Shown: positions 3,262 through 35,556, counted from the first letter of the stretch. The stretch is DNA of 37,786 bases from Actinomycetota bacterium (GCA_003134555.1 PLBO01000122.1:38389-76174), one strand, 5' to 3'. Program-made: numbers and translations. The notes: generated by a model from the letters alone, not told the origin.

Positions 3262-3294
3262 AATCCGACCTCGAGGCCCGCTGTTACCGGTGTC

Positions 3295-3302: not shown

Positions 3303-3427
3303 CAGAACCCGACCCAAGATGAAGGAACCCACTCGTGGTCTCCGACCCGCCGGACCGAGCGGACGGCCAAACAAGTCCCAAGCTGCACCGAGTGACCAGA
3401 AGGGAGCGCTTACGCGCTGTGCGTGTT

Positions 3428-3455
3428 GTTCACTCGCGCTGGCGAGTTCACTCGC
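3428..3455. repeat. Short direct repeat in a structured intergenic region
   Basis: GTTCACTCGC occurs at 3428-3437 and again at 3446-3455, a period of 18 bases. It is surrounded by overlapping inverted repeats (ACTCGC/GCGAGT, and CTCGCTGCGCTCGCTC just after). The 242-base gap 3262-3503 between the regulator stop and the flgN start has no convincing gene. This structured block may be the transcriptional boundary between the two leftward genes. Confidence 0.4.
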
Positions 3456-3503
3456 TGCGCTCGCTCACCGCTTCGTGCGATCCCCGTTCCGCGGGCGTGC
3501 GAA

Positions 3504-4205: not shown

Positions 4206-4339
4206 CACGCGCCTCCCAGCGGTCGTGATCCGTAAACGCTACCTTCCGCGAACGCCCAAGCCACGCAAAGCGGTCACTTCTTTCAACCCCGAGACCGATC
4301 AAGAGCTTGGCCCCTCGCCGCCGAAGTTTGCGTCCAACA

Positions 4340-4356
4340 TCCACAAAACCTGTGGA
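4340..4356. promoter_or_regulatory. Inverted repeat upstream of fliA
   Basis: TCCACA-AAACC-TGTGGA is a 6-bp inverted repeat with a 5-base loop, ending 30 bases before the fliA start. It lies in the 181-base gap (4206-4386) between the divergently transcribed regulator and sigma factor genes, so it is a candidate operator for either. Confidence 0.3.
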
Positions 4357-4386
4357 CACCTGCAGAAGGAACCGGGGGCAACGGAC

Positions 4387-5268: not shown

Positions 5269-7082
5269 CGGAGTCCGGCCCCGGAAAGCCTCAGCTCCCG
5301 GGGTCGGTCGCCGACGAGGAAAAGTTCCGGCCGAAACATCGGCGGGAGTGCATTGAGGAGCCCAGGGACCTGGGCGAGCAGTTCATCGTGATCACGAACG
5401 GTGCCGGGCGCGTCGCCGAGGTCGCAGCGCGCTTCACCCTCGACGCAATGCCCCGCAAGCAGATGGCGATCGACGCCGACCTCAACTCGGGTCTCATCAA
5501 CGAGCAGGAGGCGAAGCGGCGGCGGGGCGAGGTTGCGGAAGAGGCCGACTTCTACGGCGCGATGGACGGTGCCTCGAAGTTCGTGAAGGGCGACGCGATC
5601 GCCGCGATCGTCATCGTCGCGATCAACCTCATCGGTGGGTTCGCGGTCGGCATCCTCCAGCAGCACCTGTCGTTCGGCGACGCGATCAAGACGTACAGCC
5701 TCCTCACCGTCGGCGACGGCCTGGTCGCGCAGATCCCCGCGTTGCTCATCTCGCTCTCGTCGGGCCTGATCGTCACCCGAGCCGCGACCGAGATGGACCT
5801 CGGCTCCGACCTGTTGCACCAGTTCACGCGGCACAAGAAGACGCTGCAGCTCGGTGGTGGCGCGATCTGCGCGGTCGCGATCGTTCCCGGTCTGCCCAAG
5901 GTTCCGTTCTTCATCGTCGGCGGCGCGCTCCTCCTACTCGCGACCAGAGTGCCCAGCGACGACGAGATCGCGGCGCGTGAAGCCGCGGCGAAGGAAGTCG
6001 AGATTGCTCCCATCGAGCTCTCTCCCGACTCACCGGAGCACCTCGTCGGCGAGATGCGCGTCGAACCGCTCGAGCTCGAGATCGCGTACGACCTCATCGA
6101 CCTCGTCGACGCGTCGAAGGGCGGCGACCTGCTCGACCGCGTGCGCGCGCTTCGGCGCAAGCTCGCGCTCGAGCTCGGAGTCGTGATCCCGCTCGTCCGC
6201 ACGCGCGACAACCTCGAGCTCCCGGCCAGCACCTACGCGGTGCGCGTCAACGGCGTCGACGTCGGGCGGGGCGAAGCGCCGGCCGGCCACGTGCTGGTCC
6301 TCGGCGACGACGCGGGCGCGCTCCCGGGTATGCCGACGCGCGAACCCGTCTTCGGCCTTCCGGCCACGTGGGTGCCGACCGAGTTCCGTCATCAGGCCGA
6401 GATCACCGGCGCGACCGTCGTCGACCGCGCATCCGTCATCACCACGCACCTCGCGGAAGTCGTGCGCCGCAACGCGGGTCGTCTGCTGAGCCGCCAGGAC
6501 GTGAAGATGCTCGTCGACGTGGTGACGCAGAGTGATCCCGTCGTGATCGACGAGCTCAACGGCGCGAACGTGACCACGGGCGAGATCCAACGCGTGCTCC
6601 AGATGCTCCTCGACGAAGGCGTCGGCATCCGCGACCTCGTGCGGATCTTCGAGGTGATCTCGGAGCGCTCCCGAGTGACGAAGGACGCCGAGCAGATCGT
6701 GGAAGCAGTGCGTACCGCGCTCGGCCCCGCGATCTCGTCGTCGTACGCGAAGGACGGCAAGCTCCCCGTCATCACTCTCGATCCGCTCGTCGAGCATGCG
6801 CTGGCGGAGACGCTGCGCACCGGCGATACCGGCAGCTTCCTCGCGCTCGATCCGCAGACCGCGGAACAACTCGCCCTCGCGGTCGCCCGCGAGGCCGAGG
6901 CCGCGGAGATGAAGGGCATCGAACCCGTTTTCGTCTGCGCGACCCAGCTACGGCCGTCGGTTCGCCGGCTGCTGCACGCGGCCGCGCCCCGTCTTCCAGT
7001 TCTTGCGTACACAGAGCTCGGCGCGCAGCTCGAGCTCGACACGATTGGAGTGGTGAACCTTGGCCAGCCAGCTGCGGTTTGA
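5265..7082 (+). CDS. flhA: Flagellar export gate protein FlhA, lacking the N-terminal membrane block
   Basis: A 605-residue reading frame starting with TTG inside the fliA stop (TTGA). Similarity to FlhA begins abruptly near residue 39 (FIVITNGAGRVAEVAARFTL) and continues to the end. Three membrane-spanning segments (about 111-132, 149-172 and 197-226) and the whole cytoplasmic domain are present. FlhA is normally about 690 residues with eight membrane helices; the first roughly 110 residues with TM1-TM4 are absent. Residues 1-38 are hydrophilic and resemble no part of FlhA. The highly conserved MPGKQMAID motif reads MPRKQMAID (Arg64). FlhA is the export-gate platform for FlgN/FliS/FliT-cargo complexes, so a protein without TM1-TM4 may not work. 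Alternatives are an assembly deletion, a pseudogene, or a second complete copy elsewhere. Confidence 0.85.
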   Translation: MTESGPGKPQLPGSVADEEKFRPKHRRECIEEPRDLGEQFIVITNGAGRVAEVAARFTLDAMPRKQMAIDADLNSGLINEQEAKRRRGEVAEEADFYGAMDGASKFVKGDAIAAIVIVAINLIGGFAVGILQQHLSFGDAIKTYSLLTVGDGLVAQIPALLISLSSGLIVTRAATEMDLGSDLLHQFTRHKKTLQLGGGAICAVAIVPGLPKVPFFIVGGALLLLATRVPSDDEIAAREAAAKEVEIAPIELSPDSPEHLVGEMRVEPLELEIAYDLIDLVDASKGGDLLDRVRALRRKLALELGVVIPLVRTRDNLELPASTYAVRVNGVDVGRGEAPAGHVLVLGDDAGALPGMPTREPVFGLPATWVPTEFRHQAEITGATVVDRASVITTHLAEVVRRNAGRLLSRQDVKMLVDVVTQSDPVVIDELNGANVTTGEIQRVLQMLLDEGVGIRDLVRIFEVISERSRVTKDAEQIVEAVRTALGPAISSSYAKDGKLPVITLDPLVEHALAETLRTGDTGSFLALDPQTAEQLALAVAREAEAAEMKGIEPVFVCATQLRPSVRRLLHAAAPRLPVLAYTELGAQLELDTIGVVNLGQPAAV

Positions 7083-8244
7083 AGGCGGCGAGCTCGAGGA
7101 GCTTCTCGAGCGCGTCCGCACCGAGGTCGGACCGGAGGCGCACATCGTCGCCGCGAACCGGATCCGCCAAGGCGGCATCGCGGGCTTCTTCGCGCGCGAG
7201 GGATTCGAAGTCGTCGTCGATCTGGCGAAAGGCGATCAGGCGGCGAACACCGGGCGCGGGATGCGCGGGCGGCGTTCCCGCGCCGCGAGCACCGCGACGG
7301 CGGCTTCGTCGTCGGCGTCGGTTCTCGACCTCGTCGAAGAGGTGAACCAGGTGGAGCGCGAGCAGGTCATCGACCTCTCGGAGCCCGCGATGTCGACGAC
7401 GGCAACCGTGTCGACCGAGCGTCCGGACTTCGGGACGATGCTCGCCAACCTCACACGCGAGCTCGACGAAGAGGAGGCATCCATGCCCATGACCGTCACC
7501 GACGGACCGATCTCGCCGAGCGCGCACTACCGGCGCGTGACCGCGGACCCGGCCGGCGCGCCGGTCGCGCCCGCGCCCGCGGCGGCGCCCGCGGCGGCAG
7601 CTTCGGAAACGACGCTGCTGCCGCAAGGTGACGCGCGGCTGCTCGCGCTCGGCTTGCCGAACGAGCTCGCGCCGTCGACGGCGGTGACGGGCGACCTGCG
7701 GACCGCGCTGTGCCAGCGCCTCGCGCAGCTCCCCCCTCCGCCGGTGCTCCCCCGCACGACCGGAGTCGTGATCGCGATCGTGGGCATCGGGACCGCGCCC
7801 ATCGCGCTCGCGCGCCGCCTCGCCGACGAGCTCGACATCGATCCCGACCACGTGCTGCTCGCGACGCCCGAAGCGATGAGCGACGTCTCGCATCCCGAGG
7901 AGGCCGAGGCGTTCCGGCGGAGCTGCCGTCGTCGCGCCGAACCGACGATCGTCGCGTGCAGCATCGGTGCCGGTCGGGCGCAGTTGGGATGGGCCCATCG
8001 CATCCTCGACCGGCTCGAGCCGACGATCACGTGGGCCGTCGTCGACGCGTCGTGCAAGGCCGAAGACGTCGGACACCGGATCACGTTGCTCGGCGGCGTC
8101 GACGTCATCGCCATCACCGGCATCGCCGACACCGTCAGCCCGGCTGCAATCCTCGGTCTCGGCGTCCCCATCGGTCGGATCGGCTCCAACCCGGCGACGC
8201 CGGCGGTGTGGGCCGACCTCCTGATGGAACGCCTGGCGCGGTGA
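7060..8244 (+). CDS. FlhF-like protein with a degenerate GTPase domain
   Basis: A 394-residue protein with a TTG start overlapping the last 23 bases of flhA. Residues 5-55 match the FlhF N-terminus (LRFEGGELEELLERVRTEVG, then GPEAHIVAANRIRQGGIAGF and FAREGFE). A Ser/Ala/Pro-rich linker covers about 60-230. Residues 235-394 have the length and rhythm of the SRP-type G domain, but the P-loop position reads AIVGIGTAPIALARR instead of GxxGxGKTT. The G4 position reads ITGIADT instead of TKxD, although GLGVPIGRIG resembles the end of the FlhF fold. FlhF normally places polar flagella and interacts with FlhG. Here GTP binding is probably lost, so it may be a structural pseudo-GTPase. Position after flhA supports the family call. 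Confidence 0.7.
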   Translation: MASQLRFEGGELEELLERVRTEVGPEAHIVAANRIRQGGIAGFFAREGFEVVVDLAKGDQAANTGRGMRGRRSRAASTATAASSSASVLDLVEEVNQVEREQVIDLSEPAMSTTATVSTERPDFGTMLANLTRELDEEEASMPMTVTDGPISPSAHYRRVTADPAGAPVAPAPAAAPAAAASETTLLPQGDARLLALGLPNELAPSTAVTGDLRTALCQRLAQLPPPPVLPRTTGVVIAIVGIGTAPIALARRLADELDIDPDHVLLATPEAMSDVSHPEEAEAFRRSCRRRAEPTIVACSIGAGRAQLGWAHRILDRLEPTITWAVVDASCKAEDVGHRITLLGGVDVIAITGIADTVSPAAILGLGVPIGRIGSNPATPAVWADLLMERLAR

Positions 8245-8257
8245 AGCAGGTCACGTC

Positions 8258-8587
8258 ATGAACCGTCCGAGCGTCGATCCCGCGTTCACCTTCGGGTTGA
8301 GCCTCGCCATCTCATTGCTGCTCTGGTACCCGACCCTGCGCGAGACGATGACCGGCAACATCGAGATCACCGACGCCGGGATTCGCTACTTCCTCGCGCT
8401 CGCGATCTCTTGGGCCGGCGTGTACAGCGTCTCCGCGATCGTCGCGATGTACGCGAGCAAGCCGCACCAACCCGGCTTGCCGCCGCCGCCCGATCCGGGC
8501 GCGCGCGAAGGTGTTCCGGCGCGCCGGCAGGACGACGCCATGGCGGCGGAAGCGCAATCGGAGCGGTCGGACAGCAACGCCGCCTGA
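8258..8587 (+). CDS. Small two-helix membrane protein of unknown function
   Basis: A 109-residue protein not recognised as a known family. It has two hydrophobic segments, at about residues 11-24 (FGLSLAISLLLWYP) and 44-66 (RYFLALAISWAGVYSVSAIV). A hydrophilic Pro-rich and Glu/Ser-rich cytoplasmic-like tail follows. It starts 13 bases after the flhF-like stop, so it is likely the last gene of the fliA-flhA-flhF group and may have a flagellar or envelope role. It ends in a hairpin at 8580-8598, facing the convergent whiB. Confidence 0.65.
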   Translation: MNRPSVDPAFTFGLSLAISLLLWYPTLRETMTGNIEITDAGIRYFLALAISWAGVYSVSAIVAMYASKPHQPGLPPPPDPGAREGVPARRQDDAMAAEAQSERSDSNAA

Positions 8588-22729: not shown

Positions 22730-24766
22730 TCAGGGCGACGGAGGAATGTGGATCTCGCGGGCTTCCGGCCCGTCGATCCGCACTCCGGTAAGAACGCCTT
22801 GATGCTGGGCCCGCGCAATCAGCCACGCGGCGAACACCCGCGCCGACGCGTCGCGGAAGTGCACCCCGTCGGGGCGGAGCACCGTGCCTCCGACGTGGCT
22901 GTCGCAATCGGTGTCGATCCGTGGGCAGATCCACGAGAAGAGATCGGCCAGCACGGCGCGCGGTTCGCTCGCGGCGACCCGCCGGAAGATCGCGTTTTGA
23001 CAGTCGTTGTGACGGAACCACGCGAGTGTCTTGTACGGAAGACCCGCGTACGCCGTCGTCGTGACGACCACGCGCGCGCCGTTCGCCGCGAGCAGGCGGA
23101 TTTGTTGGTGCAACTCTTTCTCGAGAACGTTGTCGTAGGCAGGCTCGCACGGCGCCGTCCAATTGCCGTTGATCTCGTGTTCCGCGTCCGTGGGGTCGGA
23201 GACGAGCATCACCACGACGTCGGGCCGGAACGCGGAGACCGCGTAGGCCCAGTTGTCGAGGCACACTCGTGACTGGCCCACGTACGTGTCGCCGTTGGGA
23301 AACCTCGAGCGCGTTTCTTCGGGAAGCACGCGGCAACCGATCGAGCCGAGATTGAGCACGTCGAGCGGCGGCGACGTGTGCAGCTGTTTGAAGCCCTCGT
23401 CGGCGGTGTACAAGGCGATCGAGTTGCCGACCACCAGCACCCGTGGCGGAAGCACCTTCTGCTTGTGCCCGCGCGCGGCGGGCGGCGCCGGGATCGAGCG
23501 GCGGATCGGATCGGCCACGACGACCTTGGACGCGGGCGTGCCCGCGGTGGAGACCATGACCGCGACGACCACCGCGACCGCGGTCGCAAATGCAAGCGTG
23601 ACGCGTCGGGCGGGAGGCCGGGTCCAGACGCCGCGCCGGATCGGTCGCTCGACGAAGCGGTAGGAAACCGCGGCGACCGCGAGCGTCGCCGCGACCCGAA
23701 TGCAGAGCAGGGGCCAGCCGCCGAGATGTGCACGCGACGGGTCGAGCACCACGTAGATCGGCCAATGCCAGAGGTACACGCCGTAGCTGACGAGTCCCAA
23801 CGCGCACAACGGACGGAACGAGAGCAACTGGCTGACCGGACCGCGCCGCGGGTGCACTGCGGCCGCGATCACGATCACGGTCGCGAGCGCGCACACGAAC
23901 AGGCCGCCTCGATACAGCATGTCCGAGGAACCCGCGACTTGCGTCCATGCGATCGCGAGCAGTGCGAGAGCCCCGAGCGCTCCCGCTTCGAGCGCCAGGC
24001 GCGAGCTACGCGCCCGCACCGGACCCCGCAGTCCGAGCCACGCGGCGAGCGCGGCGCCGACCACGATCGACGCGAGGCGGGTATCCGTGCCGTAATAGAC
24101 GCGCGACACGTCGGCCGGGTCGAAGATGACGAGCGTCCACGCGAGCGACGCGAACGCGAGGACGACCGACGCAACGAGCACCCGAGCAGCCGCCGCACGC
24201 CCGCGGCAACCGCGTACGAGAACGGCGACGACCAGCGGCCACACCAGGTAGAACTGCTCTTCGATCGCGAGGCTCCACGTGTGGTCGAGCGGCGAGGGGC
24301 TACGGAACAAGGTCCAGTAGTCACGGCTGGTGAAGATCGCCCGCCAGTTCGCGAAGTATCCGATCGTCGCGAGCGCGTCACCGCGGATCGTCGCGAGTTC
24401 GTCGGGCTTCGCGAACAACGCCGCGTACAACGCGACCCCCGCCAGCACGCCCGCCAACGCGGGGAGCAGTCGGCGAGCACGACGCGCCCAGAACGCACCG
24501 AGCGCGATACCGCCGCGGTCGCGTGCCTCGGCCAGCAGCAGCGAGGTGATGAGGAAGCCCGAGAGCACGAAGAACGCGTCGACGCCCAAGAACCCGCCGC
24601 TCAGGTGCCCGCCGTGGAAGAGCAAGACGGCCGCGACCGCGAGCCCGCGCAACCCGTCGAGCGCGGGCTGATGGGTCAGTCGCGGGCGCGGGAGGTCGCC
24701 GGGCACGCCGGTCGAGACGCCGGTCGAAACGGACGATGAATCACGCGTGCCGGTTGCTATTTCCAT
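22730..24766 (-). CDS. OafA-type acyltransferase with C-terminal SGNH domain
   Basis: A 678-residue protein. The membrane acyltransferase-3 domain (about residues 30-400) shows ALDGLRGLAVAAVLLFHGGH with the catalytic-type His, GFLGVDAFFVLSGFLITSLL, and LDHTWSLAIEEQFYLVWPL, with about ten helices. A linker near 430-450 precedes an SGNH-like domain (PRVLVVGNSIALYTADEG for block I, and RPDGVHF for the Asp-His end). OafA/OatA-type proteins O-acetylate cell-wall glycan, LPS or polysaccharide. Here it heads a leftward single gene next to the rightward glycosyltransferase cluster. The ATG at 24764-24766 has no clear ribosome binding site. The acyl acceptor is not known. Confidence 0.9.
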   Translation of the reverse strand: MEIATGTRDSSSVSTGVSTGVPGDLPRPRLTHQPALDGLRGLAVAAVLLFHGGHLSGGFLGVDAFFVLSGFLITSLLLAEARDRGGIALGAFWARRARRLLPALAGVLAGVALYAALFAKPDELATIRGDALATIGYFANWRAIFTSRDYWTLFRSPSPLDHTWSLAIEEQFYLVWPLVVAVLVRGCRGRAAAARVLVASVVLAFASLAWTLVIFDPADVSRVYYGTDTRLASIVVGAALAAWLGLRGPVRARSSRLALEAGALGALALLAIAWTQVAGSSDMLYRGGLFVCALATVIVIAAAVHPRRGPVSQLLSFRPLCALGLVSYGVYLWHWPIYVVLDPSRAHLGGWPLLCIRVAATLAVAAVSYRFVERPIRRGVWTRPPARRVTLAFATAVAVVVAVMVSTAGTPASKVVVADPIRRSIPAPPAARGHKQKVLPPRVLVVGNSIALYTADEGFKQLHTSPPLDVLNLGSIGCRVLPEETRSRFPNGDTYVGQSRVCLDNWAYAVSAFRPDVVVMLVSDPTDAEHEINGNWTAPCEPAYDNVLEKELHQQIRLLAANGARVVVTTTAYAGLPYKTLAWFRHNDCQNAIFRRVAASEPRAVLADLFSWICPRIDTDCDSHVGGTVLRPDGVHFRDASARVFAAWLIARAQHQGVLTGVRIDGPEAREIHIPPSP

Positions 24767-24890
24767 GAGGCGTCGTGATTGAACCCGCTCCGCGGCAACG
24801 GCGCCAACGTCGCCACTATCCGTGTCGGTTTTGTCACGGAAATGTCGGTAGAGCCGGTACCATTCGGGCCTCCATGTCGACCGCGGAGCG

Positions 24891-25673
24891 ATGACCGAAC
24901 GCAGCGCGGGCCTGGCCGCCGTTCGTGACGGCGAGGTGCTCGTCGTGATTCCGGCGTTCAACGAGGAGCAGTCGGTCGGGCGCGTGGTGGAGCAGGTGCG
25001 CTCGCTCGGCTACCCGGCGCTCGTCGTCGACGACGGCTCGATCGACCGCACGTCCGAGGTCGCCGAGCAGGCGAGCGCGGTCGTGCTGCGCCTTCCGGTC
25101 AACCTCGGTGTCGGCGGCGCGTTGCGGTGCGGATTTCGCTACGCCGTCACGCACGGCTATCAGGTCGTCGTGCAGTGCGACGCCGACGGACAGCACGATC
25201 CGGCGCAGATCGCCAAACTCCTCGACGCCATGCGCACCGATGATGCCCATCTCGTGATCGGTTCCCGGTTCGCCGCCGGTGAGCAGCAGGCGTACGCGGT
25301 GGGTCGCGTCCGAGGCGTCGTCATGCGCCGGCTCGCGCGCATGGCTTCACGGCGAACGGGTGTCGAGATCACCGACGCGACGTCGGGATTCCGCGCGATC
25401 GGCGGCAGCCTCCTCGGCGCGTTCGCGGCCACATACCCGACCGAGTATCTCGGCGACACGATGGAGTCGCTTGCCCGCGCGGGCCGAGCCGGATACCGAG
25501 TGGTCGAGATCCCGGTCGAGATGCACGCCCGCGAAATCGGCGTGTCGACGGCTTCGTCGCTCTCGTCGGCTTGGTACCTGGTCCGAGTCATCATGGCCGT
25601 GTGGTTGCAGCGCTACCGCCCCACGGGGCGGCGCGTCGTGCGTCTCACCCTTTGGGAGGGCGATTCCGCGTGA
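24891..25673 (+). CDS. GT2-family glycosyltransferase (DPM1/polyprenyl-phosphate sugar synthase-like)
   Basis: A 260-residue GT2 enzyme. The GT-A motifs are VVIPAFNEEQSVGRVVEQV near the start, ALVVDDGSIDRTSEVAE (nucleotide-binding Asp pair), VVQCDADGQHDPAQIAKLLD (catalytic DXD-like region) and HLVIGSRFAAGE. There is no C-terminal membrane pair, which separates it from GtrB/ArnC types. Such enzymes move a sugar from a nucleotide donor to polyprenyl phosphate, supplying membrane GT-C enzymes. Four candidate GT-C/YfhO-like proteins are encoded downstream. The stop overlaps the next gene's GTG (GTGA), and DUF2304 follows after it, a common partner of DPM1-like genes. Confidence 0.9.
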   Translation: MTERSAGLAAVRDGEVLVVIPAFNEEQSVGRVVEQVRSLGYPALVVDDGSIDRTSEVAEQASAVVLRLPVNLGVGGALRCGFRYAVTHGYQVVVQCDADGQHDPAQIAKLLDAMRTDDAHLVIGSRFAAGEQQAYAVGRVRGVVMRRLARMASRRTGVEITDATSGFRAIGGSLLGAFAATYPTEYLGDTMESLARAGRAGYRVVEIPVEMHAREIGVSTASSLSSAWYLVRVIMAVWLQRYRPTGRRVVRLTLWEGDSA

Positions 25674-28369
25674 GGATCGCGATCACCGGTGTGACCGGCT
25701 TCATCGGCCGGCATCTCGCAACGCTTGCGTTGGCCGAGGGCCATGCCGTCACGGCATTCAGCCGCCGGCCGTGGACGGGTACGCCCTACGTGCCGCTCGA
25801 CGACCGGCATTTCCTCGTGCTCCCCGCCCGGGCCGACGCGGCCACGCTGGCGGGTGTCGACGCCGTGGTGCATCTCGCCGCCGCGCCGCAGTCGGCGAGT
25901 GACGCGGTGACCGACACCGTGAACCGCGTCGGCACGAAACACTTGTTCGAGGCCGCGCAACACGCAGGCATCGGCCGCTTCGTTTTCGTGTCCTCCCAGT
26001 CGGCGCACGCGGGCGTGGAGTCCGCGTACGGACGATCGAAGCGCGCCATCGAGCAGGACCTGGCCATCGAACCCGGTGTCGTCATCGTGCGGCCGGGCAT
26101 GGTGCAGGGTGACGCGGACGACGGCCTCATGGGGCGCGCAACCCGCACGGCCGCGAAGCTCCGCGTGTTCCCCGTCATCGGCGGGAACACCGCGCGCGCG
26201 CAGCCAATCGACGTCGAAGCGTTGTGCGACGCGCTCATCACTCTCGCGACGATGTCCGACCCGCCGCCCTTCGTCATGCTCGGCGATCCGACCGTGCGCC
26301 TCTTGGGCGACGTCGTGCGCGGCGAAGCGAAGAAGCGCTTCGGTGTTTCACCGCGACCGATCCCGGTGCCGATCGGTCTCGCGCGCACCGCCGTGCGCGC
26401 CATGTCCCGCCTACACTTGCCGTCGCCGATCAGCGAGGCGAACCTCGATGGCATCGCGGGCTGGGTCCCGATGGACACCGCAGCCGACGTCGCGTTGATG
26501 GAGCACCACGCAGCCGCGCGCGCCGGCCTGACCACGGAGCGCGCTTCGGTGGCGCCGCGCCGGCTGCTACTCGTGGGCGCCGGACGCATCGGACTCGTCC
26601 ACGCGCTGACGGCCGCGCACCACCAGCAGATGGTGCTCGCCGGCATCGTCGACCTCGACCGGGGCGCGATGCAGCGCCTGACCGCCTTCGCCGGACCAGA
26701 CCTGCCGACATTCACCGACCTCGACGAGGCCCTACGCGAGCTGCGCCCCGACGCGGCCATCATCGGAACGCCACCGTCGAGCCATGTACCGCTCGCCACG
26801 AAGCTGCTCGCCGCGGGTGTCGACGTGCTGGTCGAGAAGCCGGTCGCGGCCTCGACCGACGATCGCGAAGCGCTTACTGCCGCGGCCGCCGCGCATCCCG
26901 ACCGCTACCTCGCAACCGGTTACCTCGCCGGCCTCCTCCCGCACGTCGCCGCGATCGCTCCTGAATTGCGCGCAGGCCGATACGGAGCTCCGCGTTCGTT
27001 CGACGCGCACGCGTTCGTGTCCCGCGTGGAGGAGGGCGTGGCCGAGCAGCGCGACATGTGGGAGCTCGACACGAGCATCAGCGGCGGCGGGGCGCTCGTC
27101 AACCTGGGCGTGCACGTGCTCGCGATGCTCGATCTTCTGCTCGGTCCGGTCGAAGTGGAGACCGCAACGCTCGTAACGTCGGGTGGTCGCGCGGCCGAAG
27201 ACGGCGCGACGTTGGCGTTACGCGCCGGCGGCGTTCCCGGTCACTTCACCACGGCGTGGCACCTTCCCGGCTTCGACATGCCCGAGAACCATCTGCGCAT
27301 CGACACCGACCGCGGCTACATCGTGGTCACGCTCTCGTGCGCGGCGTTCGTCGAGGGCCGCGAAGTACACATGGTGCACCAGGTCGACGCCGACGCCGGC
27401 TTCGATCTCGCGCCGATGGACGCCGGGGGCGCGTTCTGGGCCGAGCAAGACCTCCTCGCGCGGCGAGCGCCCGGCGCGAACTCGCTCGATGTCGCGAACC
27501 GCGTGGAGGACCTCATCACCGACGTGTACCGCACCGCGGCCCGCGTTCCCGCGGCTGCGGCTGCTCCGCCCGAAGCCGTGCCGCATCCGGCGGCGTCCAG
27601 CGACGACGTGGCCATGCCCGACATGCGCGGCGCGCCCACCGGCGCGGTGTGGGGTGGCAGCGCGCTCGTGGGCACCGACGGCGCCCCACGGCGCGGCGAC
27701 GCGGCGATCGTTGCTTTGCCCGACGTCCCCGGCCACTTCCGGACGCTGACCAACAAGGGACCGGTCGCGCTGGTGCGCGAGCTTGGTGTCACCAATCTGG
27801 GCCGCGCCGCGTTCGGCGTGTCGCCGCGTGGAGCGGTGTCGGCCGGTAGCCGCTCGTGGGAAGCGCTGCTCGTACTTCTGCGTGCCGAGCTGCGCCGCAT
27901 CCCGCGCTCGTATTCGGGCGCGATCATCGTAGATGCGTATCTCGTCGACCTTGCAACCGCGACCGGCAACATCGCCGTCGTCGAGGCCGCGCTCGACGAC
28001 CTGCGCGCATACTGCCGCGACGCGCGCGTGGGGGTAGAAGTGAACGCCACCGCGCGGTTCGTCCCGCACGTCCCGACCCTCGCGTCGCAGCTCGATCTCG
28101 TCGTCGCGCTCGGCACGACGCGGGAGGAGAACCTCGCGCCGTTGCGCGAGCTGCTTCCCTCGTCGGTGGAACTGGTCGTGAAGACCGGCATGCTGCCGCG
28201 AGAGCTGCTCGAGATCGCTTGGGACGAGCCGCGGCGGTGGACGCACGGCCACGGCACCGGCCGCTTGGTCGTGAACTGGCCGGGGGCGCCGAGTCTGCGC
28301 GCGCTCCACGAATCGGCACTCGTGCGGGCGCGGCGCGCCGCCGGCCTCGACGCGGCGGTGAAGCCATGA
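25670..28369 (+). CDS. Fusion of SDR epimerase, GFO/IDH/MocA oxidoreductase and an unrecognised C-terminal domain
   Basis: An 899-residue protein with a GTG start overlapping the glycosyltransferase stop. Residues 1-290 are an extended SDR: ITGVTGFIGRHL (G7, G10, G13), FVFVSSQSAH, and Y120..K124. Residues 297-625 are a GFO/IDH/MocA oxidoreductase: LLLVGAGRIGLVHAL, EKP at 389-391 with Lys390, and GGGALVNLGVHVLAMLD with His482. After an Ala/Pro-rich linker (628-645), residues of about 650-899 form a further soluble domain with helix/strand alternation, which I do not recognise. Separate SDR and MocA genes are normal for nucleotide-sugar pathways. Joining two Rossmann enzymes suggests consecutive steps on one sugar nucleotide. 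No frame break is seen across the joints. Confidence 0.88.
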   Translation: MRIAITGVTGFIGRHLATLALAEGHAVTAFSRRPWTGTPYVPLDDRHFLVLPARADAATLAGVDAVVHLAAAPQSASDAVTDTVNRVGTKHLFEAAQHAGIGRFVFVSSQSAHAGVESAYGRSKRAIEQDLAIEPGVVIVRPGMVQGDADDGLMGRATRTAAKLRVFPVIGGNTARAQPIDVEALCDALITLATMSDPPPFVMLGDPTVRLLGDVVRGEAKKRFGVSPRPIPVPIGLARTAVRAMSRLHLPSPISEANLDGIAGWVPMDTAADVALMEHHAAARAGLTTERASVAPRRLLLVGAGRIGLVHALTAAHHQQMVLAGIVDLDRGAMQRLTAFAGPDLPTFTDLDEALRELRPDAAIIGTPPSSHVPLATKLLAAGVDVLVEKPVAASTDDREALTAAAAAHPDRYLATGYLAGLLPHVAAIAPELRAGRYGAPRSFDAHAFVSRVEEGVAEQRDMWELDTSISGGGALVNLGVHVLAMLDLLLGPVEVETATLVTSGGRAAEDGATLALRAGGVPGHFTTAWHLPGFDMPENHLRIDTDRGYIVVTLSCAAFVEGREVHMVHQVDADAGFDLAPMDAGGAFWAEQDLLARRAPGANSLDVANRVEDLITDVYRTAARVPAAAAAPPEAVPHPAASSDDVAMPDMRGAPTGAVWGGSALVGTDGAPRRGDAAIVALPDVPGHFRTLTNKGPVALVRELGVTNLGRAAFGVSPRGAVSAGSRSWEALLVLLRAELRRIPRSYSGAIIVDAYLVDLATATGNIAVVEAALDDLRAYCRDARVGVEVNATARFVPHVPTLASQLDLVVALGTTREENLAPLRELLPSSVELVVKTGMLPRELLEIAWDEPRRWTHGHGTGRLVVNWPGAPSLRALHESALVRARRAAGLDAAVKP

Positions 28370-28737
28370 CGAATCTCACGGTCCAGCTCAGTATCGTCGT
28401 CGCCGGCGACCTCGCGATGTTCGCGCTCGTCTTTTGGATCTCGCGTCGCCAGCTGCTCTCGCTGCGCTACGCGCTCGGCTGGATGGTCGTCTCGGCGCTC
28501 CTGCTCGTTGCGGCGCTCGCGTTGGCGCTGGCCGGCGGGATCAGCGATTCGCTGCCGCTCACGCCTACCGGACTGCTCTCGGCGACGGGTATCGGCTTCC
28601 TGCTCCTGATCACGCTGCAGCTCTCGATCTCGCTGTCGGGTCACCAAGAGGCGATCCGCGAGTTGAGCGAGGCCAACGCGCTCTTGGAGGAAAGGTTGTC
28701 GCGCGTGGAGCAACGCGAGCGCAGCCGCGACGCGTAG
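28366..28737 (+). CDS. DUF2304 membrane protein
   Basis: A 123-residue protein with three hydrophobic segments (about residues 5-25, 38-58 and 68-88), followed by a coiled-coil-like tail (ELSEANALLEERLSRVEQRE). The arrangement LSLRYALGWMVVSALLLVAA in the middle matches DUF2304. These proteins commonly sit next to DPM1-like GT2 genes and probably assist the membrane step of polyprenyl-phosphate sugar synthesis. The ATG overlaps the stop of the fusion gene (ATGA), so the three genes are one coupled unit. It converges with the next gene, 12 bases away. Confidence 0.85.
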   Translation: MTNLTVQLSIVVAGDLAMFALVFWISRRQLLSLRYALGWMVVSALLLVAALALALAGGISDSLPLTPTGLLSATGIGFLLLITLQLSISLSGHQEAIRELSEANALLEERLSRVEQRERSRDA

Positions 28738-28749: not shown

Positions 28750-30438
28750 TCAGCCGTACTGTTCGCCGACGCGCCGATATACATAGGTGCGAGGCAGCGT
28801 CAACTCCAGCGTGTAGTTGACGTTGAACCAGGCGACGAGCTCGGTCGTCCACGGGATGTAGTTGGTGAGCTGTACCGACAGTGCGACGTAGTCGGCCCGT
28901 TCGAACCACCCCCGCCATTTCGCGGTGAACGCCGCGGGAAACGGCGGCTCCGCGGGAGGTGGCGTCTGGTTGTTGTCCGTCAGCCACATGCCGTACGCAT
29001 CGACGGTCTGCGGGCAACCGGGTTGGGCCGCGACGACACGATTGGCGTTCACCAGGATCATGGGATCGTCGGTGACCACACATGCGCCGCGGGGAATCGC
29101 TTGCGCGACGAGACTCCCCGGGTCGGCCGCGCCGGCAAGCAGCGCTCGCTCCGCGTTCACGTCGGAGGGAATCAATGACAGTGCACCTACGACGAGCACC
29201 GCCGGAAGCGCAACCGCGCCCGCGAGCCTGAGCGCGTCGGCCGACCGGCCCTGCAGGCGCGGCGAGGCGCGGGTCGCGAACTCGCCGATCCGGCCGACAC
29301 TCGTCGCGAGGAGCATCGCCCCGAACGGGAAGGCGAAGTACGCGTACTGCTCGAAGAACTGCGCCGACGACAACATCGCGGTGACCGTGACCGCGGTCGC
29401 GCCGAACAGGAACCATTCGACCCGGGACCAGCGCCGGCCGGCCGCGAAGAAGCCCGCCACGACCAAGACGACCAACCCGGCGGCGACCCAATCGGCGATC
29501 GACCCCCGGGTCTGCACACTCTGGAGCCCGCCGATCCCGAACATCAAAACGAGCCGCCATGGGAACGGCAGGTTGCCTCGGCCCGAAGCGCCCCGGCCGA
29601 GTTGCGAGACGATGACGTCATGAAACATCGCGCGCGGCGCGAGCACGAAGAACGGCAATACCACCACGCCGAATCCCAGGGCGAGCCCGACGACATACGC
29701 GCGGAGTCGTCGAACCAACGGGAGGCAACAGCACAACGCGGCGACCACCGGAAAGATCGCGAACAGCTTGATCGCACCCGCGAAGCCGAACAGCGCGCCG
29801 GCCACAAGCAACCGCCGGGAGCCGGCCAACGCGCCGTCACGGTCGAACATGACGCACGCGCCGGCCAGACAGAAGAACACGAGGTACGGCTCGAGCATCA
29901 CCGTGTGGTCGGCGATGCGCGCGAGCGGGAAGCACGCGAGCGCGAGACCCGCGACCAACATCGCGCCCCGCCCGCGCGAACGCACGACCCACGCCGCGAG
30001 CCCGGCGTTGATCCCGACGACCAGCACGGTCAGGAGGCGCGCCACCGCCATCGCGTCTCGGGTCCCGGCGAAACGTCCCACGAGCGCGGCCGGCGTCATC
30101 AGCAGCGCGATCCCAGGGGGGTGCACGAACGCGTAATCGCGGTAGGGCAACACCCCGTGGACGAGCCGGATGGCGGTCCCCAGGTAGACCCCGTCGTCAT
30201 AGCCGTAACCGGTGTAGCCGTGGATGCCGGCGAGGGCGTGCGACAGCGTGAGCTGGTAACCGCAGAGCCCGAGCGCCACGAGCGCCGGCAGGAGCGCGGG
30301 CCAGATCGCCGCGATCGCAGCCGTCACCCGCCCGCGTTCCCGGCGCGCCGTACGGACCCCCGACCTCGGCCGGGGTCCGGCCTCCGGCCGCGAGTCGCGC
30401 GCGTCGTCGACCGAGATCTCCTGCACCGTCGTCACCAC
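28750..30438 (-). CDS. Polytopic GT-C-like membrane glycosyltransferase
   Basis: A 562-residue protein from the GTG at 30438; GTGs at 30435 and 30426 are close alternatives. About 30 residues precede the first helix (ALLPALVALGLCGYQLTLSH). The first loop carries an acidic pair in GYGYDDGVYLGTAIR followed by HGVLPYRDYAFVHPPG, typical of PMT/ArnT-like GT-C enzymes that use polyprenyl-linked sugars. Some ten further hydrophobic helices follow to about residue 440, then a soluble C-terminal domain with NQTPPPAEPPFPAAF and two tryptophan-rich segments. It faces the TPR lipoprotein gene divergently. Donor and acceptor are unknown; the neighbouring DPM1-like enzyme is a plausible supplier. Confidence 0.82.
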   Translation of the reverse strand: MVTTVQEISVDDARDSRPEAGPRPRSGVRTARRERGRVTAAIAAIWPALLPALVALGLCGYQLTLSHALAGIHGYTGYGYDDGVYLGTAIRLVHGVLPYRDYAFVHPPGIALLMTPAALVGRFAGTRDAMAVARLLTVLVVGINAGLAAWVVRSRGRGAMLVAGLALACFPLARIADHTVMLEPYLVFFCLAGACVMFDRDGALAGSRRLLVAGALFGFAGAIKLFAIFPVVAALCCCLPLVRRLRAYVVGLALGFGVVVLPFFVLAPRAMFHDVIVSQLGRGASGRGNLPFPWRLVLMFGIGGLQSVQTRGSIADWVAAGLVVLVVAGFFAAGRRWSRVEWFLFGATAVTVTAMLSSAQFFEQYAYFAFPFGAMLLATSVGRIGEFATRASPRLQGRSADALRLAGAVALPAVLVVGALSLIPSDVNAERALLAGAADPGSLVAQAIPRGACVVTDDPMILVNANRVVAAQPGCPQTVDAYGMWLTDNNQTPPPAEPPFPAAFTAKWRGWFERADYVALSVQLTNYIPWTTELVAWFNVNYTLELTLPRTYVYRRVGEQYG

Positions 30439-30441
30439 CGT

Positions 30442-30474
30442 CCTGACGCCACCCGTGCGGCCGGGTGTGTCAGG
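30442..30474. promoter_or_regulatory. Imperfect inverted repeat at the start of the GT-C gene
   Basis: CCTGA-CGC-CACCCG, loop TGCGGC, then CGGGTG-TG-TCAGG forms an 11-bp interrupted stem just before the leftward start codon at 30438. It could be an operator or an mRNA hairpin in the leader of that gene. The 172-base divergent gap up to 30610 holds nothing else convincing. Confidence 0.35.
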
Positions 30475-30610
30475 CTGTATGAGTTGGGAACGTCGCTTAC
30501 GACCTCGCGGGGTGGCTACACTGTCACTCCCAGAGTTGGACCATGCTAGCAATGTCCGGTTTGACCTGCGAGGATGCCCGGGCGGGCGTGGATCGGGAGC
30601 GCAAATCAAT

Positions 30611-31231
30611 ATGAACAGCACGTCCACGACTCAATCGCGTCGGCACGCGGCTTGGCGCCGAGCCGGCACCACGCTCACGATCGCCCTCACGGCCGGGCTG
30701 GCCCTGGGCGCCTGCGGGTCCGGCGACTCCGGCACCACCGCCAACACCAACCCGGGCACTGCCGGCGGTGTGAAAGGGGCGGCCGCGCTGGTCGCCAAGG
30801 CTCTGCAGGAGCAGGGCGCGGGCGATCTGGCTTCCGCCAAACGCGACTACTCCCAGGCGATCATCGACGACCCGAAGAACAAGTTCGGCTTCTACAACCT
30901 CGGGTTGATCCAGCAGATCGGCGGCGACAAAGCGGCCGCCGAGAACAACTACCGGATAGCCCTCAACCTCGACCCCAAGTTCCCGCAGCCCCTCTACAAC
31001 CTCGCGATCCTCCGCACCGCCGCCGGCTCCCTTCCGGAAGCGATCGACCTGTACCGCCGGACAATTGCGGCGTCGCCCACGGCGGCCGACGCGCACTTCA
31101 ACCTCGGCCTGCTGCTTCGCCAGACCGGTAAAACAGCCGAGGGCAACCTCGAGGTACAGGCTGCGGTGAAGCTCGATCCAACCCTGGCTTCCCGCGCCAA
31201 GGCGCAGGGAATCCCGGCCGCCGGCAAGTAA
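30611..31231 (+). CDS. TPR-repeat lipoprotein
   Basis: A 206-residue lipoprotein: signal peptide with lipobox LGAC at Cys35, after a basic start. At least three tetratricopeptide repeats follow: GDLASAKRDYSQAIIDDPKN, then FYNLGLIQQIGGDKAAAENN with LNLDPKFPQPLYNLAILRTA, and GSLPEAIDLYRRTIAASPTA followed by FNLGLLLRQTGKTAEG. The family normally gives protein-protein contacts, often as a scaffold for membrane glycan machines. It precedes the YfhO-like membrane protein gene by 24 bases on the same strand and likely forms one unit with it. GGGAG lies 11 bases upstream of the ATG, a slightly long spacing. Confidence 0.85.
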   Translation: MNSTSTTQSRRHAAWRRAGTTLTIALTAGLALGACGSGDSGTTANTNPGTAGGVKGAAALVAKALQEQGAGDLASAKRDYSQAIIDDPKNKFGFYNLGLIQQIGGDKAAAENNYRIALNLDPKFPQPLYNLAILRTAAGSLPEAIDLYRRTIAASPTAADAHFNLGLLLRQTGKTAEGNLEVQAAVKLDPTLASRAKAQGIPAAGK

Positions 31232-31255: not shown

Positions 31256-33475
31256 ATGAAGGCTCCTTCGGCCGAAAAGACCGTGGCCGCAGAGGTCGAC
31301 GCGCGTGTCGCGGTGGAGGCTCCGCGCAGCCGCGCCGAGCGGCTCGCGAGCCGACGCGCGGAGTGGGCGAAGTACGTGCCGCTCGGCCTCGTCGCCATCG
31401 CGGTGCTGTTCAACCTCTTCGTCCTGCGCTCGGAGGTGAGCCCAGTAGCACCGCCGAACGACACGAGCGTGCACGTCTCGCTGGTGCGCTTCGCCGAACA
31501 GCGGATCCAGGACGGCAAGGACGTGTTCGACGGCTGGTACCCGCGCCTTTCGATGGGCCTCCCCGAGTTCCACCACTATCAGTCCCTCGCACCGATCGTC
31601 GGCGGCGCGATCGCCACGCAGTTGGGCGCGGCCCGCACCGTCGCGTGGTCGAACTACCTGCTGGTGTGTCTCCTGCCGCTCTGTTTCTACTGGGCGGTCC
31701 GGCTGTTCGGCTTCAGCCGTTGGGTCGCGGGGATCGCCGCGCTGTTCGTCCCGCTCATCAGCTCGGTGACCCTGTACGGCTACGAGCACGGCAGCTTCCA
31801 ATGGCGCGGCAACGGTATCTGGACCGCGCTCTGGGGAATGTGGCTGCTCCCACTCACACTCGCGTTCACCTACCGCTCGATCGCGCGCGGGCGCGCCTAC
31901 GCGCTCTCGGCCCTGTTCCTCGCGTTGACGATCACCGCGCACTTCCTCACCGGCTATCTCGCGCTCCTCGCCCTCGGCATATTCGTCATCGTGAAGCCGT
32001 CGGAGATCGTCCGGCGCATCGGGCGGGCGGCGATCGTCAGCGCCGGCGGGATGCTGGTCGCGGCGTGGGTGGTCGTACCACTGCTCGCCGACGGCAAGTG
32101 GTCGAATCGCAGCGAGTACAACGTCGGCACCTTCTGGTACGACTCGGCGGGCGGCAAGGAGGTGATGGGGTGGCTCGCCACGGGCCAAGTGTTCGACTAC
32201 CGGCACTGGCCCATCGTCACGGTGCTCGCGGCCGTCGGCGTGGTCATCTGCATCTGGCGCTTCCGCCGCGACGAGGCTTCGCGCGTCATCCTCGGCTTCA
32301 CGGCGATGAGCCTCCTGCTCTTCTGCGGACGCGACACGATCGGCTTCATCGTCGACCGGCTGCCCGGCGGCAAGGACGTGGAGCTCCACCGCTACATCAT
32401 CGGCGTGCACCTCGGAGGCATAATTCTCGCGGCCATCGCCGCGGCCTGGCTCGTGCAGCTCGCCTTCACATTCGTGAACACGAGACTGAAGACCGTCCCG
32501 CCGGTCGCGATCGGAGCCGGCATCCTCGTGCTCGCGCTCGTCGCGCTCGCACCGGCGTGGCGGGAACGAGCGCACTACAACGCGCTGAACGCGAACCAGA
32601 TCAACGGGCAGCAGGTTGCCGACGCGACCGACGGCAAAGACTTCACGGCCCTCGTCGACACCACCAAGACCCTCGGCGGCGGCCGCATCTACGCGGGCCA
32701 GCCCGGCCACTCGGCGGTGATCGGTCAGGTTCCCACCTACGAATACGTGCTCCATGACAATGCCGACGTCGTCGGCTTCATGTTGCGGACCGTCTCGCTG
32801 AGCTCCGACGTCGAGACTCGTTTCGATTCGACCAACGCCGCCCACTTCGACTTGTTCAACGCGCGGTACATCATCCAACCGCTCGCACAACGTCCCTCGG
32901 TGCCCTCGACGTTCCTGCAAGCTTCGGGTCGGTGGGGGCTGTGGGCGGTGCCGACGTCGGGCTACCTACAGGTGGTCGACACAACGACGGCGATCAGTGC
33001 CGACCGGACGAACCTCGGCCGGCGCACCGCCGGTTTCCTGAGCTCGCCGTTCCCGGCGCAGCGGGTCATCCCGCTCATCGCGTTCGACGGCACGAGCACC
33101 GCCGCACCGACGTTGACGTCGTCCGTCCGTCCGACCGGAGCCGCCGGCGTGATCACGCAGCAGTTCGACCGCCCCGACGACGGCGACTTCGGCGGCACCA
33201 TCGTCGCCAACCGCAACGCCGTGGTAATGCTCAAGGCGACCTACGACCCGCACATGAAGGCGACAGTCGACGGCCATCCCGCGAAGACGCAGATGCTGGC
33301 GCCGAGCTTCATCGGCGTCGCGGTCACGCCGGGCCAGCACACGATCGAATTCCACTACGTGGAGTTCGGGTACTACTGGGAGCTCCTCCTGCTCGCCGCG
33401 CTGACACTCGCGGCACTCGCACTGGTGCCGCGCTACGGCCGGCGGTGGACACAATCCCGGCCTCCCCGGAATTGA
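31256..33475 (+). CDS. Large polytopic membrane protein, YfhO/GT-C-like
   Basis: A 739-residue protein: a basic cytoplasmic start, about 13 hydrophobic helices between residues 40 and 430, then a soluble C-terminal domain of about 250 residues and one more helix near 705-725. The first outer loop has PPNDTSVHVSLVRFAEQRI and DGWYPRLSMGLPEFHHYQSL, with the acidic residue expected in GT-C loop 1. The C-terminal part (VVMLKATYDPHMKATVDGHP, then GVAVTPGQHTIEFHYV) resembles the beta domain of YfhO-type proteins. This architecture occurs in sugar-adding membrane proteins of surface polysaccharides. It follows the TPR lipoprotein and is followed by another GT-C-like gene, so the three probably work together. 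The sugar is unknown. Confidence 0.8.
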   Translation: MKAPSAEKTVAAEVDARVAVEAPRSRAERLASRRAEWAKYVPLGLVAIAVLFNLFVLRSEVSPVAPPNDTSVHVSLVRFAEQRIQDGKDVFDGWYPRLSMGLPEFHHYQSLAPIVGGAIATQLGAARTVAWSNYLLVCLLPLCFYWAVRLFGFSRWVAGIAALFVPLISSVTLYGYEHGSFQWRGNGIWTALWGMWLLPLTLAFTYRSIARGRAYALSALFLALTITAHFLTGYLALLALGIFVIVKPSEIVRRIGRAAIVSAGGMLVAAWVVVPLLADGKWSNRSEYNVGTFWYDSAGGKEVMGWLATGQVFDYRHWPIVTVLAAVGVVICIWRFRRDEASRVILGFTAMSLLLFCGRDTIGFIVDRLPGGKDVELHRYIIGVHLGGIILAAIAAAWLVQLAFTFVNTRLKTVPPVAIGAGILVLALVALAPAWRERAHYNALNANQINGQQVADATDGKDFTALVDTTKTLGGGRIYAGQPGHSAVIGQVPTYEYVLHDNADVVGFMLRTVSLSSDVETRFDSTNAAHFDLFNARYIIQPLAQRPSVPSTFLQASGRWGLWAVPTSGYLQVVDTTTAISADRTNLGRRTAGFLSSPFPAQRVIPLIAFDGTSTAAPTLTSSVRPTGAAGVITQQFDRPDDGDFGGTIVANRNAVVMLKATYDPHMKATVDGHPAKTQMLAPSFIGVAVTPGQHTIEFHYVEFGYYWELLLLAALTLAALALVPRYGRRWTQSRPPRN

Positions 33476-35556
33476 CGGACTCTCCGGCGCTCGAGCCGGC
33501 GGCTCCGGCCGGGCGGTCGACGTCGAGAACGTCCCGCCGCCACAAGCGATCCATGCATCGCATCACGCCGCGGATCACCCGAACCTCCGCGATGTGGGAG
33601 GTCGTTCGATGGGCACCGACGGCGATCTTCGCGGCAGGCATATGGGTGCACCGATGGACAGCCGAGGACGGCTTCATCAATCTCAGGATCGTCAAGAACC
33701 TGATCGGAGGACGGGGATTCGTCTACAACGTCGGTCAGCGAGTGGAGGCAGGCACTTCACCGCTCTGGCTGTTCATCCTCACCCTGTGGGCTCCAGTTCG
33801 GCACTTCCTGAGCCTCGAGGTCTTCGCAATGCTCGTGGGGGCTGCGCTGGCCATCGCGGGTTTCGTGTTCGGCCAGCTCGCCGCGGAGGCCCTGTGCGCG
33901 TCCGACGACCGGCGGCGATTGCTGCCGCTCGGTGCCTTGGTCGTCGCGGTGCTGCCGCCCTTCTGGGACTTCTCGACCTCCGGCATGGAGATGGGGCTCG
34001 GCTTCGGCTGGCTCGGCATCTCTTTCTGGTTGCTCGTTCGGCACGCGACGTCTCCGCGGCTGCGCTGGGTCGCGGCCGCGGTCATCGGCCTGGGGCCGCT
34101 CATCCGTCCGGATTTCGCGGTGTTCACGCTCGGCTTTGCAGCAGCACTTTTGGCGCTGAACTGGTCGCGACGAACCAAGACGCTCGTCGGTCTGACGATC
34201 GCAATCGTCGCGGCGCCCGCGCTGTACGAAGTATTTCGCATCTGGTACTTCGGCCTTCTCCTCCCGGCGACCGCGCTCGCGAAGGAAGCCGGGGCGAGCA
34301 ACACGCAGCAGGGATTCGCGTACCTCGCCGACTTCAATCGGCCGTACATGATTCTCGTGCCGCTGGTCGTCATCGTGGCGATCTTGCAGTTCTCCCGCCC
34401 GCCCGTGTTGGTCTCGTCACGCAACCGGGTCCTCGCGGGCGCGTTGTGGGCTGCGGCCGGGCTCCACGCCGCCTGGGTCGTGAGACTTGGGGGTGACTAC
34501 ATGCACGGCCGCTTCTTCCTGCCGTCGCTGTTCGTCGCTGTCCTCCCGGTGTTCGCCGTCCCTCGGGCGTCCGCGAAGCTAGGTGTGTACGCCATCATCG
34601 TGGCCTGGGCCGGCCTGGTCCTGATGAGTGCCCGCGACCACACCTCCCAGATCGGGGCGTCCGGAATCGTGAACGAGCGTCTCTTCTGGGTAGACGCCAG
34701 CAAGGTTCAGCATCCCGTCGAGGTGGGCGACTTCCGCAACGTCGACTTCTACGGTCCGGGCGCCGCGGCGCACGACCTCGCGGCGGCAGGCATCGGGGAC
34801 TACTTCCAGAGCTACGTCGGCCGAGGTTTGACGACCGTCTCGTCGCCCGGACTCCCCGGTTCGGGGCTCGTCGAGAAGTACTTCTTCCTCGGTGTCTTCG
34901 GATACGCGGCGGGTCCGCACGTGACGGTGTACGACCCGGAAGGCCTGGCCGATCCGGTTGCGGGACATCAGCGAGTCCTGATACGCACCCGACCCGGTCA
35001 TGAGAAGTCGCTTCCGCTCATCTGGTACCTGGCGCGATTCGATGCGAACGCCGAAAACCCGGCCGACCTGGCGACGTGGGCCAACATCTCCTTCGCGAGC
35101 GACCATGTCACGCGTGAAGAGCTCGACAACGCGAAGGCGGCACTGAACTGCAAGCCTCTCCGCGACATCCAAGCGGCATCCACGGGTCCGCTCGGTGACG
35201 TGTGGGGCCGATTCACGCGGGCGTGGCGACTCACGTTTCTGCGCTTCGATCCCGACCCCGCGAAAGCGCGAGCACAGCTGTGCGGTACCACCGCCGCGTC
35301 ATCGGCGCGCTCACTGCTCGAGCGCGGCCCGATAGCCCCGGCTCGTGACTGGCCGAGTGCCGTGGCATTCGGGTTGGGCAGCGCCGCGAGTGACGCCGAG
35401 CCGAGTTTGCGCGTCTCCCTCTCTCCGGGGCCCGCTACGCGTTCGGGAAGCAACAGTCGTTGCGTACCGCGTGAGCGCTCCCCACCGTTCGCTCAGGTTC
35501 CTGTTGAGAAAGGCCGGCAGCCGTATACCCCACCGTCGTCGGGCGTCGGGTCGTGA
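33445..35556 (+). CDS. GT-C membrane glycosyltransferase, AftB/ZomB-like
   Basis: A 703-residue protein if it starts at the GTG at 33445, overlapping the previous gene by 31 bases. A TTG at 33472 forming TTGA with that stop, and an ATG at 33553, are alternatives. After a basic tail it has TM1 (WAPTAIFAAGIWVHRW), and the loop TAEDGFINLRIVKNL with VYNVGQRVEAGTSPLWLFIL resembles the actinobacterial family of the arabinofuranosyltransferase AftB and ZomB. About ten helices follow to residue 410, then a soluble domain with FQSYVGRGLTTVSSPGLPGS. The last 60 residues are low-complexity. The 3' end overlaps the convergent next gene by 64 bases. Terminal arabinose transfer is a possibility, not shown. 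Confidence 0.8.
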   Translation: MDTIPASPELTDSPALEPAAPAGRSTSRTSRRHKRSMHRITPRITRTSAMWEVVRWAPTAIFAAGIWVHRWTAEDGFINLRIVKNLIGGRGFVYNVGQRVEAGTSPLWLFILTLWAPVRHFLSLEVFAMLVGAALAIAGFVFGQLAAEALCASDDRRRLLPLGALVVAVLPPFWDFSTSGMEMGLGFGWLGISFWLLVRHATSPRLRWVAAAVIGLGPLIRPDFAVFTLGFAAALLALNWSRRTKTLVGLTIAIVAAPALYEVFRIWYFGLLLPATALAKEAGASNTQQGFAYLADFNRPYMILVPLVVIVAILQFSRPPVLVSSRNRVLAGALWAAAGLHAAWVVRLGGDYMHGRFFLPSLFVAVLPVFAVPRASAKLGVYAIIVAWAGLVLMSARDHTSQIGASGIVNERLFWVDASKVQHPVEVGDFRNVDFYGPGAAAHDLAAAGIGDYFQSYVGRGLTTVSSPGLPGSGLVEKYFFLGVFGYAAGPHVTVYDPEGLADPVAGHQRVLIRTRPGHEKSLPLIWYLARFDANAENPADLATWANISFASDHVTREELDNAKAALNCKPLRDIQAASTGPLGDVWGRFTRAWRLTFLRFDPDPAKARAQLCGTTAASSARSLLERGPIAPARDWPSAVAFGLGSAASDAEPSLRVSLSPGPATRSGSNSRCVPRERSPPFAQVPVEKGRQPYTPPSSGVGS

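Follow-up and report, generated by a model that had tools for sequence, protein, structure and literature searches.

The 37,786-bp stretch of DNA analysed here (the window; GCA_003134555.1, PLBO01000122.1:38389-76174), which belongs to a draft genome of an Actinomycetota bacterium, includes a single uninterrupted gene (nucleotides 25670-28369, + strand) that codes for a genuine three-domain fusion: a short-chain dehydrogenase/reductase (SDR) of the epimerase type, a Gfo/Idh/MocA oxidoreductase, and a C-terminal region that appears to be an orphan domain. The gene overlaps at its 5′ end a GT2 gene of the polyprenyl-phosphate-sugar synthase type and at its 3′ end a DUF2304 gene. We tentatively consider its product a cytoplasmic sugar-tailoring enzyme that entered the GT2 and DUF2304 pair as a single gene and feeds transmembrane glycosylation, an interpretation to which we give a little less than an even chance.

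Organization of the fusion gene

The fusion gene and its immediate neighbors include the following features.

24891..25673, + strand: GT2, polyprenyl-phosphate-sugar synthase type (PpgS/GacI type); PF00535 6.4e-25, NCBIfam PpgS 4.5e-37 and AglJ 1.9e-22
25670..26536, + strand: domain 1, SDR/epimerase-type NAD(P)-binding (amino acids 1-289); PF01370 8.7e-17, motifs, PDB 6wjb, 6jkg and 7ar7
26540..27530, + strand: domain 2, Gfo/Idh/MocA oxidoreductase (amino acids 291-620); PF01408 5.3e-20, PF22725 3e-13, PDB 6nor and 3q2k
27530..27620, + strand: Ala/Pro-rich interdomain linker (about amino acids 621-650); 13 Ala and 7 Pro in 40 residues
27620..28366, + strand: domain 3, orphan C-terminal (about amino acids 650-899), alternating β/α in weak AlphaFold2 models; no sequence match
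28366..28737, + strand: DUF2304 small membrane protein (GacJ type); PF10066 3.6e-12

The open reading frame (ORF) starts with a GTG at nucleotide 25670, about 10 nt downstream of a GGGAGG-like Shine-Dalgarno sequence, and ends with a TGA at 28369, coding for 899 amino acids with no internal stops. Its layout consists of the SDR/epimerase portion (residues ~1-285), the Gfo/Idh/MocA portion (~295-620), the linker, and the C-terminal region (~650-899). Codon-usage coding potential favored one frame over the entire ORF, including the last 250 codons, the position-specific G+C content was steady, and the G+C content at third codon positions exceeded that at second positions throughout; nothing in these profiles therefore points to a frameshift or to a tail outside the coding sequence. 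The G+C content and tetranucleotide composition of the gene fall inside the range of the window. The stop of GT2 and the start of the fusion share 4 nt (GTGA), as do the stop of the fusion and the start of DUF2304 (ATGA).

A previous reading of this DNA made without database searches, referred to here as the sequence-only reading, had described an 899-residue frame joining SDR, MocA and a third domain, translationally coupled on one side to a DPM1-like GT2 gene and on the other to DUF2304. Both the frame and the coupling were borne out, and the frameshift or stop between the domains that it had named as a concern is not found in the sequence as assembled. The positions it gave for the motifs of the two enzymes (GxxGxxG at 7-13, YxxxK at 120-124, GxGxxG near 303, EKP at 389 and His482) were all correct.

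The two oxidoreductase domains

By its motifs domain 1 is a member of the SDR superfamily. The Pfam Epimerase match spans residues 3-195, and the intact motifs GVTGFIG (7-13), SSQSA (108) and YGRSK (120-124) provide the putative catalytic residues Ser108, Tyr120 and Lys124. A PDB sequence search returned only generic matches to extended SDRs, the longest alignment being with the NDUFA9 group; the catalytic Tyr is present in domain 1, unlike in the NDUFA9 chain aligned with it. Similarity to the NDP-sugar subfamily was likewise limited to the generic Epimerase match, with all NCBIfam equivalogs far under cut-off. Domain 1 thus has in common with the extended and atypical SDRs (NAD-dependent epimerase/dehydratases, HpnA and NDUFA9-like proteins) the GxxGxxG, SSxS and YxxxK motifs and the Pfam Epimerase match, but differs from them in being fused N-terminally to a MocA enzyme and in having no specific NDP-sugar epimerase signature.

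Domain 2 can be assigned to the Gfo/Idh/MocA oxidoreductases on the basis of a Rossmann GxGxxG (GAGRIG, 303-308), the EKP lysine (389-391) and the histidine of the GGGxLxD/NxGxH motif (GGGALVNLGVH, 472-482, with His482). The GFO_IDH_MocA and GFO_IDH_MocA_C3 matches cover residues 298-413 and 433-551, respectively. Its closest solved structures in the PDB sequence search were 6nor (4.3e-16), entitled "putative NAD dependent dehydrogenase", and 3q2k (1.7e-13), and the glucuronide-3-dehydrogenase 8tdi was also among the matches; resemblance to inositol dehydrogenases was found as well (TIGR04380, 7.4e-16). The EKP lysine and the GGGALVNLGVH histidine align with those of 6nor and 3q2k, and the Asn of this motif is common to domain 2 and 3q2k. 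We take 6nor to be GenD2, of gentamicin synthesis, and 3q2k to be WlbA, a UDP-GlcNAcA 3-dehydrogenase, which presumably act on a soluble aminoglycoside or UDP-sugar. Domain 2 shares with these sugar 3-dehydrogenases the Rossmann NAD domain, the EKP lysine and GGGxLxNxGxH, but the similarity is distant and, in contrast to them, it sits inside a three-domain chain. The claim that the gene joins two sugar-nucleotide oxidoreductases is therefore plausible for the MocA domain and too specific for the SDR domain. The protein has no FAD-binding or ALO match in Pfam, which sets it apart from the DprE1 family of oxidases.

The C-terminal domain

No sequence match to domain 3 was found in Pfam, NCBIfam, PHROGs or PDB, so that the ~250-residue domain that the sequence-only reading could not place is still without a family. 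Two single-sequence AlphaFold2 models with differing boundaries reached pLDDT values of 43 and 47 and pTM values of 0.41 and 0.45, and both showed the same succession of alternating strands and helices. When compared with known structures they matched many diverse TIM barrels with VIA Z scores up to 7.3 and no family ahead of the others. The best Foldseek match, an HMG-CoA lyase, had an E value of 1.4e-3 but a TM score of only 0.28. HMG-CoA lyase, dihydrodipicolinate synthase, type I dehydroquinase and galacturonate dehydratase were each considered and rejected, as all had Z scores of about 5-7 and none stood out; DUF362 and aldo-keto reductase, judged by eye, were discarded because motifs or strand order were mismatched. 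A structure prediction of residues 650-899, proposed as a check by the previous reading, thus yielded a resemblance to a β/α barrel, in weak models and with no single family. A (β/α) barrel fold is likely but unproven.

Distribution of the fusion and of its parts

The search for other copies covered about 990 distinct Actinomycetota genomes, each searched with the full-length protein, domain 3 or both, together with genome contigs, PLSDB plasmids and viral contigs. The full-length protein was run against 198 relatives, against 395 genomes from the class, and against 66 and 249 genomes from two other classes; domain 3 was run against 198 relatives, 396 genomes from the phylum and 39 from one other class. 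Few candidates were scored per genome in the runs with strict cut-offs, and the empty runs in other classes (66 and 249 genomes with the full-length protein and 39 with domain 3) included no genome with a known match. Within this scope neither a second copy of the fusion nor a relative of domain 3 was found, a negative outcome for the expectation that the same domain order would be present elsewhere. None of the long open frames near MocA or SDR matches in the loci fetched from relatives holds both domains. Three weak matches to domain 3 (L013-L015, E 0.003-0.007) were rejected on inspection: one is a different protein, read as CinA/MoaB-like, another is a match of 27 residues only, and the third, in or beside a putative enoyl-CoA hydratase, was not reproduced by BLAST. 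Among the sequences searched, the fusion is carried by one draft genome only, of 154 contigs. It was not found in three other genomes of the genus, which is weak evidence because these are 74-88% complete. The fusion as a whole appears to be lineage-specific; each known part of it is ordinary in itself.

Separate MocA and SDR genes were found together in other sugar loci. A genome of the same order (G021, L087 5520-8689) includes the two genes with a 4-nt overlap (7736/7739), set among two C-methyltransferases, an NDP-sugar epimerase/dehydratase, a UDP-glucose dehydrogenase and a polysaccharide flippase, and a Halomarina plasmid includes a MocA-DUF362-SDR arrangement beside glycosyltransferases. 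Since identity to the window domains is only ~30-35% over the matched parts, these pairs represent a recurring partnership and not orthology. They fit the idea of the previous reading that the two enzymes catalyze consecutive steps. Two adjacent MocA genes are also present elsewhere in the source genome (contig C115, L004 and L006), on one strand with ~0.4 kb between the matched stretches.

The GT2 and DUF2304 module

The GT2 protein is closest to PpgS, a polyprenyl-phospho-GalNAc synthase, and to AglJ, with both scores under the equivalog cut-offs. GT2 homologs were found in 24 of the 61 genomes searched, counting the source genome. GT2 and DUF2304 genes are directly adjacent at nine loci in eight genomes of the same order (L074-L080, L082 and L084); another such pair, also adjacent, is found elsewhere in the source genome (L083). 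In seven of these ten pairs GT2 comes first, and there the genes overlap by 4 nt or lie no more than ~60 nt apart. Both families are present at the source locus, but with the fusion gene between them; its position is thus exactly within a pair of genes that is conserved in relatives. The second pair of the source genome, on contig C84, has a 4-nt overlap, and another GT2 and an SDR are located within ~6 kb of it.

GacI makes undecaprenyl-phosphate N-acetylglucosamine with the aid of the DUF2304 protein GacJ (PMC8327497; PMC8035078), and DUF2304 is typical of GacJ, encoded directly 3′ of gacI homologs (PMC8327497). The source locus resembles the GacI-GacJ/PpgS module of multi-component transmembrane glycosylation systems in including the same families in the same order, with a YfhO-type GT-C gene nearby as well, but differs from it in that a putative tailoring fusion gene lies between GT2 and DUF2304.

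The surroundings of these genes include four further features.

22730..24961, − strand: acyltransferase-3 with SGNH-like tail (start uncertain; the listed ORF overlaps GT2); PF01757 2.4e-26, PF19040 6e-5
28750..30627, − strand: GT87-type GT-C glycosyltransferase; PF09594 3.6e-10
31256..33475, + strand: YfhO-type GT-C glycosyltransferase; PF09586 1e-11
33532..35556, + strand: AftB-like arabinofuranosyltransferase (start approximate); PDB 9dlf_C 5.7e-52, NF041481 1.5e-62 (under cut-off), no Pfam match

The AftB-like gene suggests that the lineage makes arabinan. A canonical decaprenylphosphoryl arabinose (DPA) cluster is located on contig C83 (L094 5629-9318) and includes complete genes for decaprenyl-phosphate phosphoribosyltransferase (DPPR synthase), DprE1 and DprE2, all over the NCBIfam equivalog cut-offs, and a HAD-IB phosphatase. 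The AftB donor therefore comes from the standard pathway, and the fusion most likely has another task than DPA supply; a role as replacement of DprE1/DprE2 was dropped. DprE1/DprE2 and AftB are also the genes on which the assignment of the genome to the Actinomycetota is based. As acyltransferase-3 genes also adjoin the GT2 and DUF2304 pair in L082 and L084, that of the window may belong to the same surface-glycan module. The left end of the window (184-8587) includes genes recognized by eye from the translations as flagellar (flagellin/hook-associated, FlhA-like and sigma factor).

Proposed function

What follows is inferred for the substrate, for the direction of each step, for the contribution of domain 3 and for the product. 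The MocA domain would use NAD(P)+, the EKP lysine and His482 to oxidize one ring hydroxyl, most likely at C3 if it behaves as its nearest solved relatives of the WlbA/GenD2 type. The keto-sugar would then be processed, possibly by the barrel-like domain 3, through an isomerization, epimerization or elimination beside the ketone, and the SDR domain (Ser108, Tyr120 and Lys124) would reduce the ketone back to render an epimerized or rearranged sugar with zero net cofactor use. GT2, assisted by DUF2304, would load polyprenyl phosphate with this product, or with the unmodified precursor if the enzyme acts on the lipid-linked form, and a GT-C enzyme of the YfhO, GT87 or AftB type would transfer the sugar onto a cell-surface polymer. 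The preferred order has the fusion acting before GT2 on an NDP-sugar rather than after it on a lipid-linked sugar. In its boldest version, which we hold to be rather unlikely, all three steps (MocA oxidation, action of a new barrel family on the keto-sugar, and SDR re-reduction) take place on the one chain and yield an undescribed rare sugar delivered directly to the co-translated polyprenyl-phosphate-sugar synthase.

There are precedents for parts of this scheme. In the levoglucosan pathway LgdA-LgdB1/B2-LgdC, which works on free sugars, oxidation at C3 comes first, proteins with the annotation "sugar phosphate isomerase/epimerase" then carry out elimination and hydration, and a reduction follows (PMC7676230), a sequence like that proposed for the fusion; the differences are that the Lgd enzymes are separate proteins, that the pathway is catabolic, and that its reductase is of the MocA type. 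Homology between domain 3 and LgdB is hypothetical. ORF13 of C. youngae is an SDR epimerase that determines which sugar is used by a three-component system based on polyprenyl phosphate, and the authors who described it knew of no second case of an epimerase in O-antigen side-chain glycosylation (PMC11127046). DprE1/DprE2, an oxidase and reductase pair, achieve the net epimerization of decaprenyl-phospho-ribose, as proposed for the fusion with its sugar, but DprE1 is a flavin adenine dinucleotide (FAD) enzyme and the source genome has its own DprE1 and DprE2, as separate genes on C83.

Several points weigh against a sugar-tailoring role. The substrate of the enzyme is a conjecture; by sequence the SDR domain is equally near to NDUFA9/HpnA/3β-HSD-type SDRs and to NDP-sugar epimerases; the barrel rests on weak models with Z below 8, which according to the warning of the tool may reflect just a common arrangement; the fusion is carried by a single genome; and a common operon of the fusion with the GT-C genes would be an assumption, GT87 being on the opposite strand. 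The interpretation of the sequence-only reading is reasonable and stands as to the true fusion, the intact motifs and the coupling, while it was over-specific on the SDR substrate and on the channeling of intermediates.

The two oxidoreductase domains could instead serve different sugars or branches, the fusion securing equal amounts and co-translation, with domain 3 as a non-catalytic docking or lipid-proximal scaffold to the membrane GT2. The long Ala/Pro linker ahead of domain 3, the tight coupling to two membrane-associated partners and the lack of a sequence relative, as expected for a fast-evolving scaffold, are consistent with such an arrangement, which we nevertheless consider somewhat unlikely, as the predicted alternating β/α pattern points to a globular enzyme-like fold and, at the other sugar locus mentioned above, a MocA gene is coupled to an SDR gene. 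A two-step epimerase acting on the polyprenyl-phosphate sugar itself after GT2 loading, in the manner of DprE1/DprE2, is distinctly unlikely: the nearest MocA relatives presumably use soluble substrates and the canonical pathway on C83 makes the fusion unnecessary for DPA, even though DprE1/DprE2 and ORF13, the latter acting on a lipid-linked pentofuranose (PMC11127046), are precedents and an AftB-like transferase is found within the window.

The likeness of the MocA domain to inositol dehydrogenases and of the SDR domain to steroid/HpnA-type SDRs would agree with an enzyme of catabolism or small molecules, for example in inositol or glycoside oxidation, located beside GT2 by accident; its exact insertion into a conserved glycolipid-synthesis pair, overlapping on both sides, makes this very unlikely. 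A chimeric contig, or neighboring genes joined by error, might be suspected in a gene known from one draft assembly and missing from the incomplete congeneric genomes, but the single frame with coherent codon usage, the composition within the range of the window, the exact overlaps and a linker typical of fusions render such an artefact highly improbable.

What is new here is the location of the fusion gene exactly between a polyprenyl-phosphate-sugar synthase GT2 and DUF2304. Tailoring enzymes placed between a lipid-sugar synthase and its partner would be a way to alter the sugar displayed by transmembrane glycosylation, and few are known. Domain 3 may found a new family, and the combination of oxidase-type and reductase-type domains on one chain would provide a convenient single protein for the study of redox-neutral sugar epimerization and channeling.

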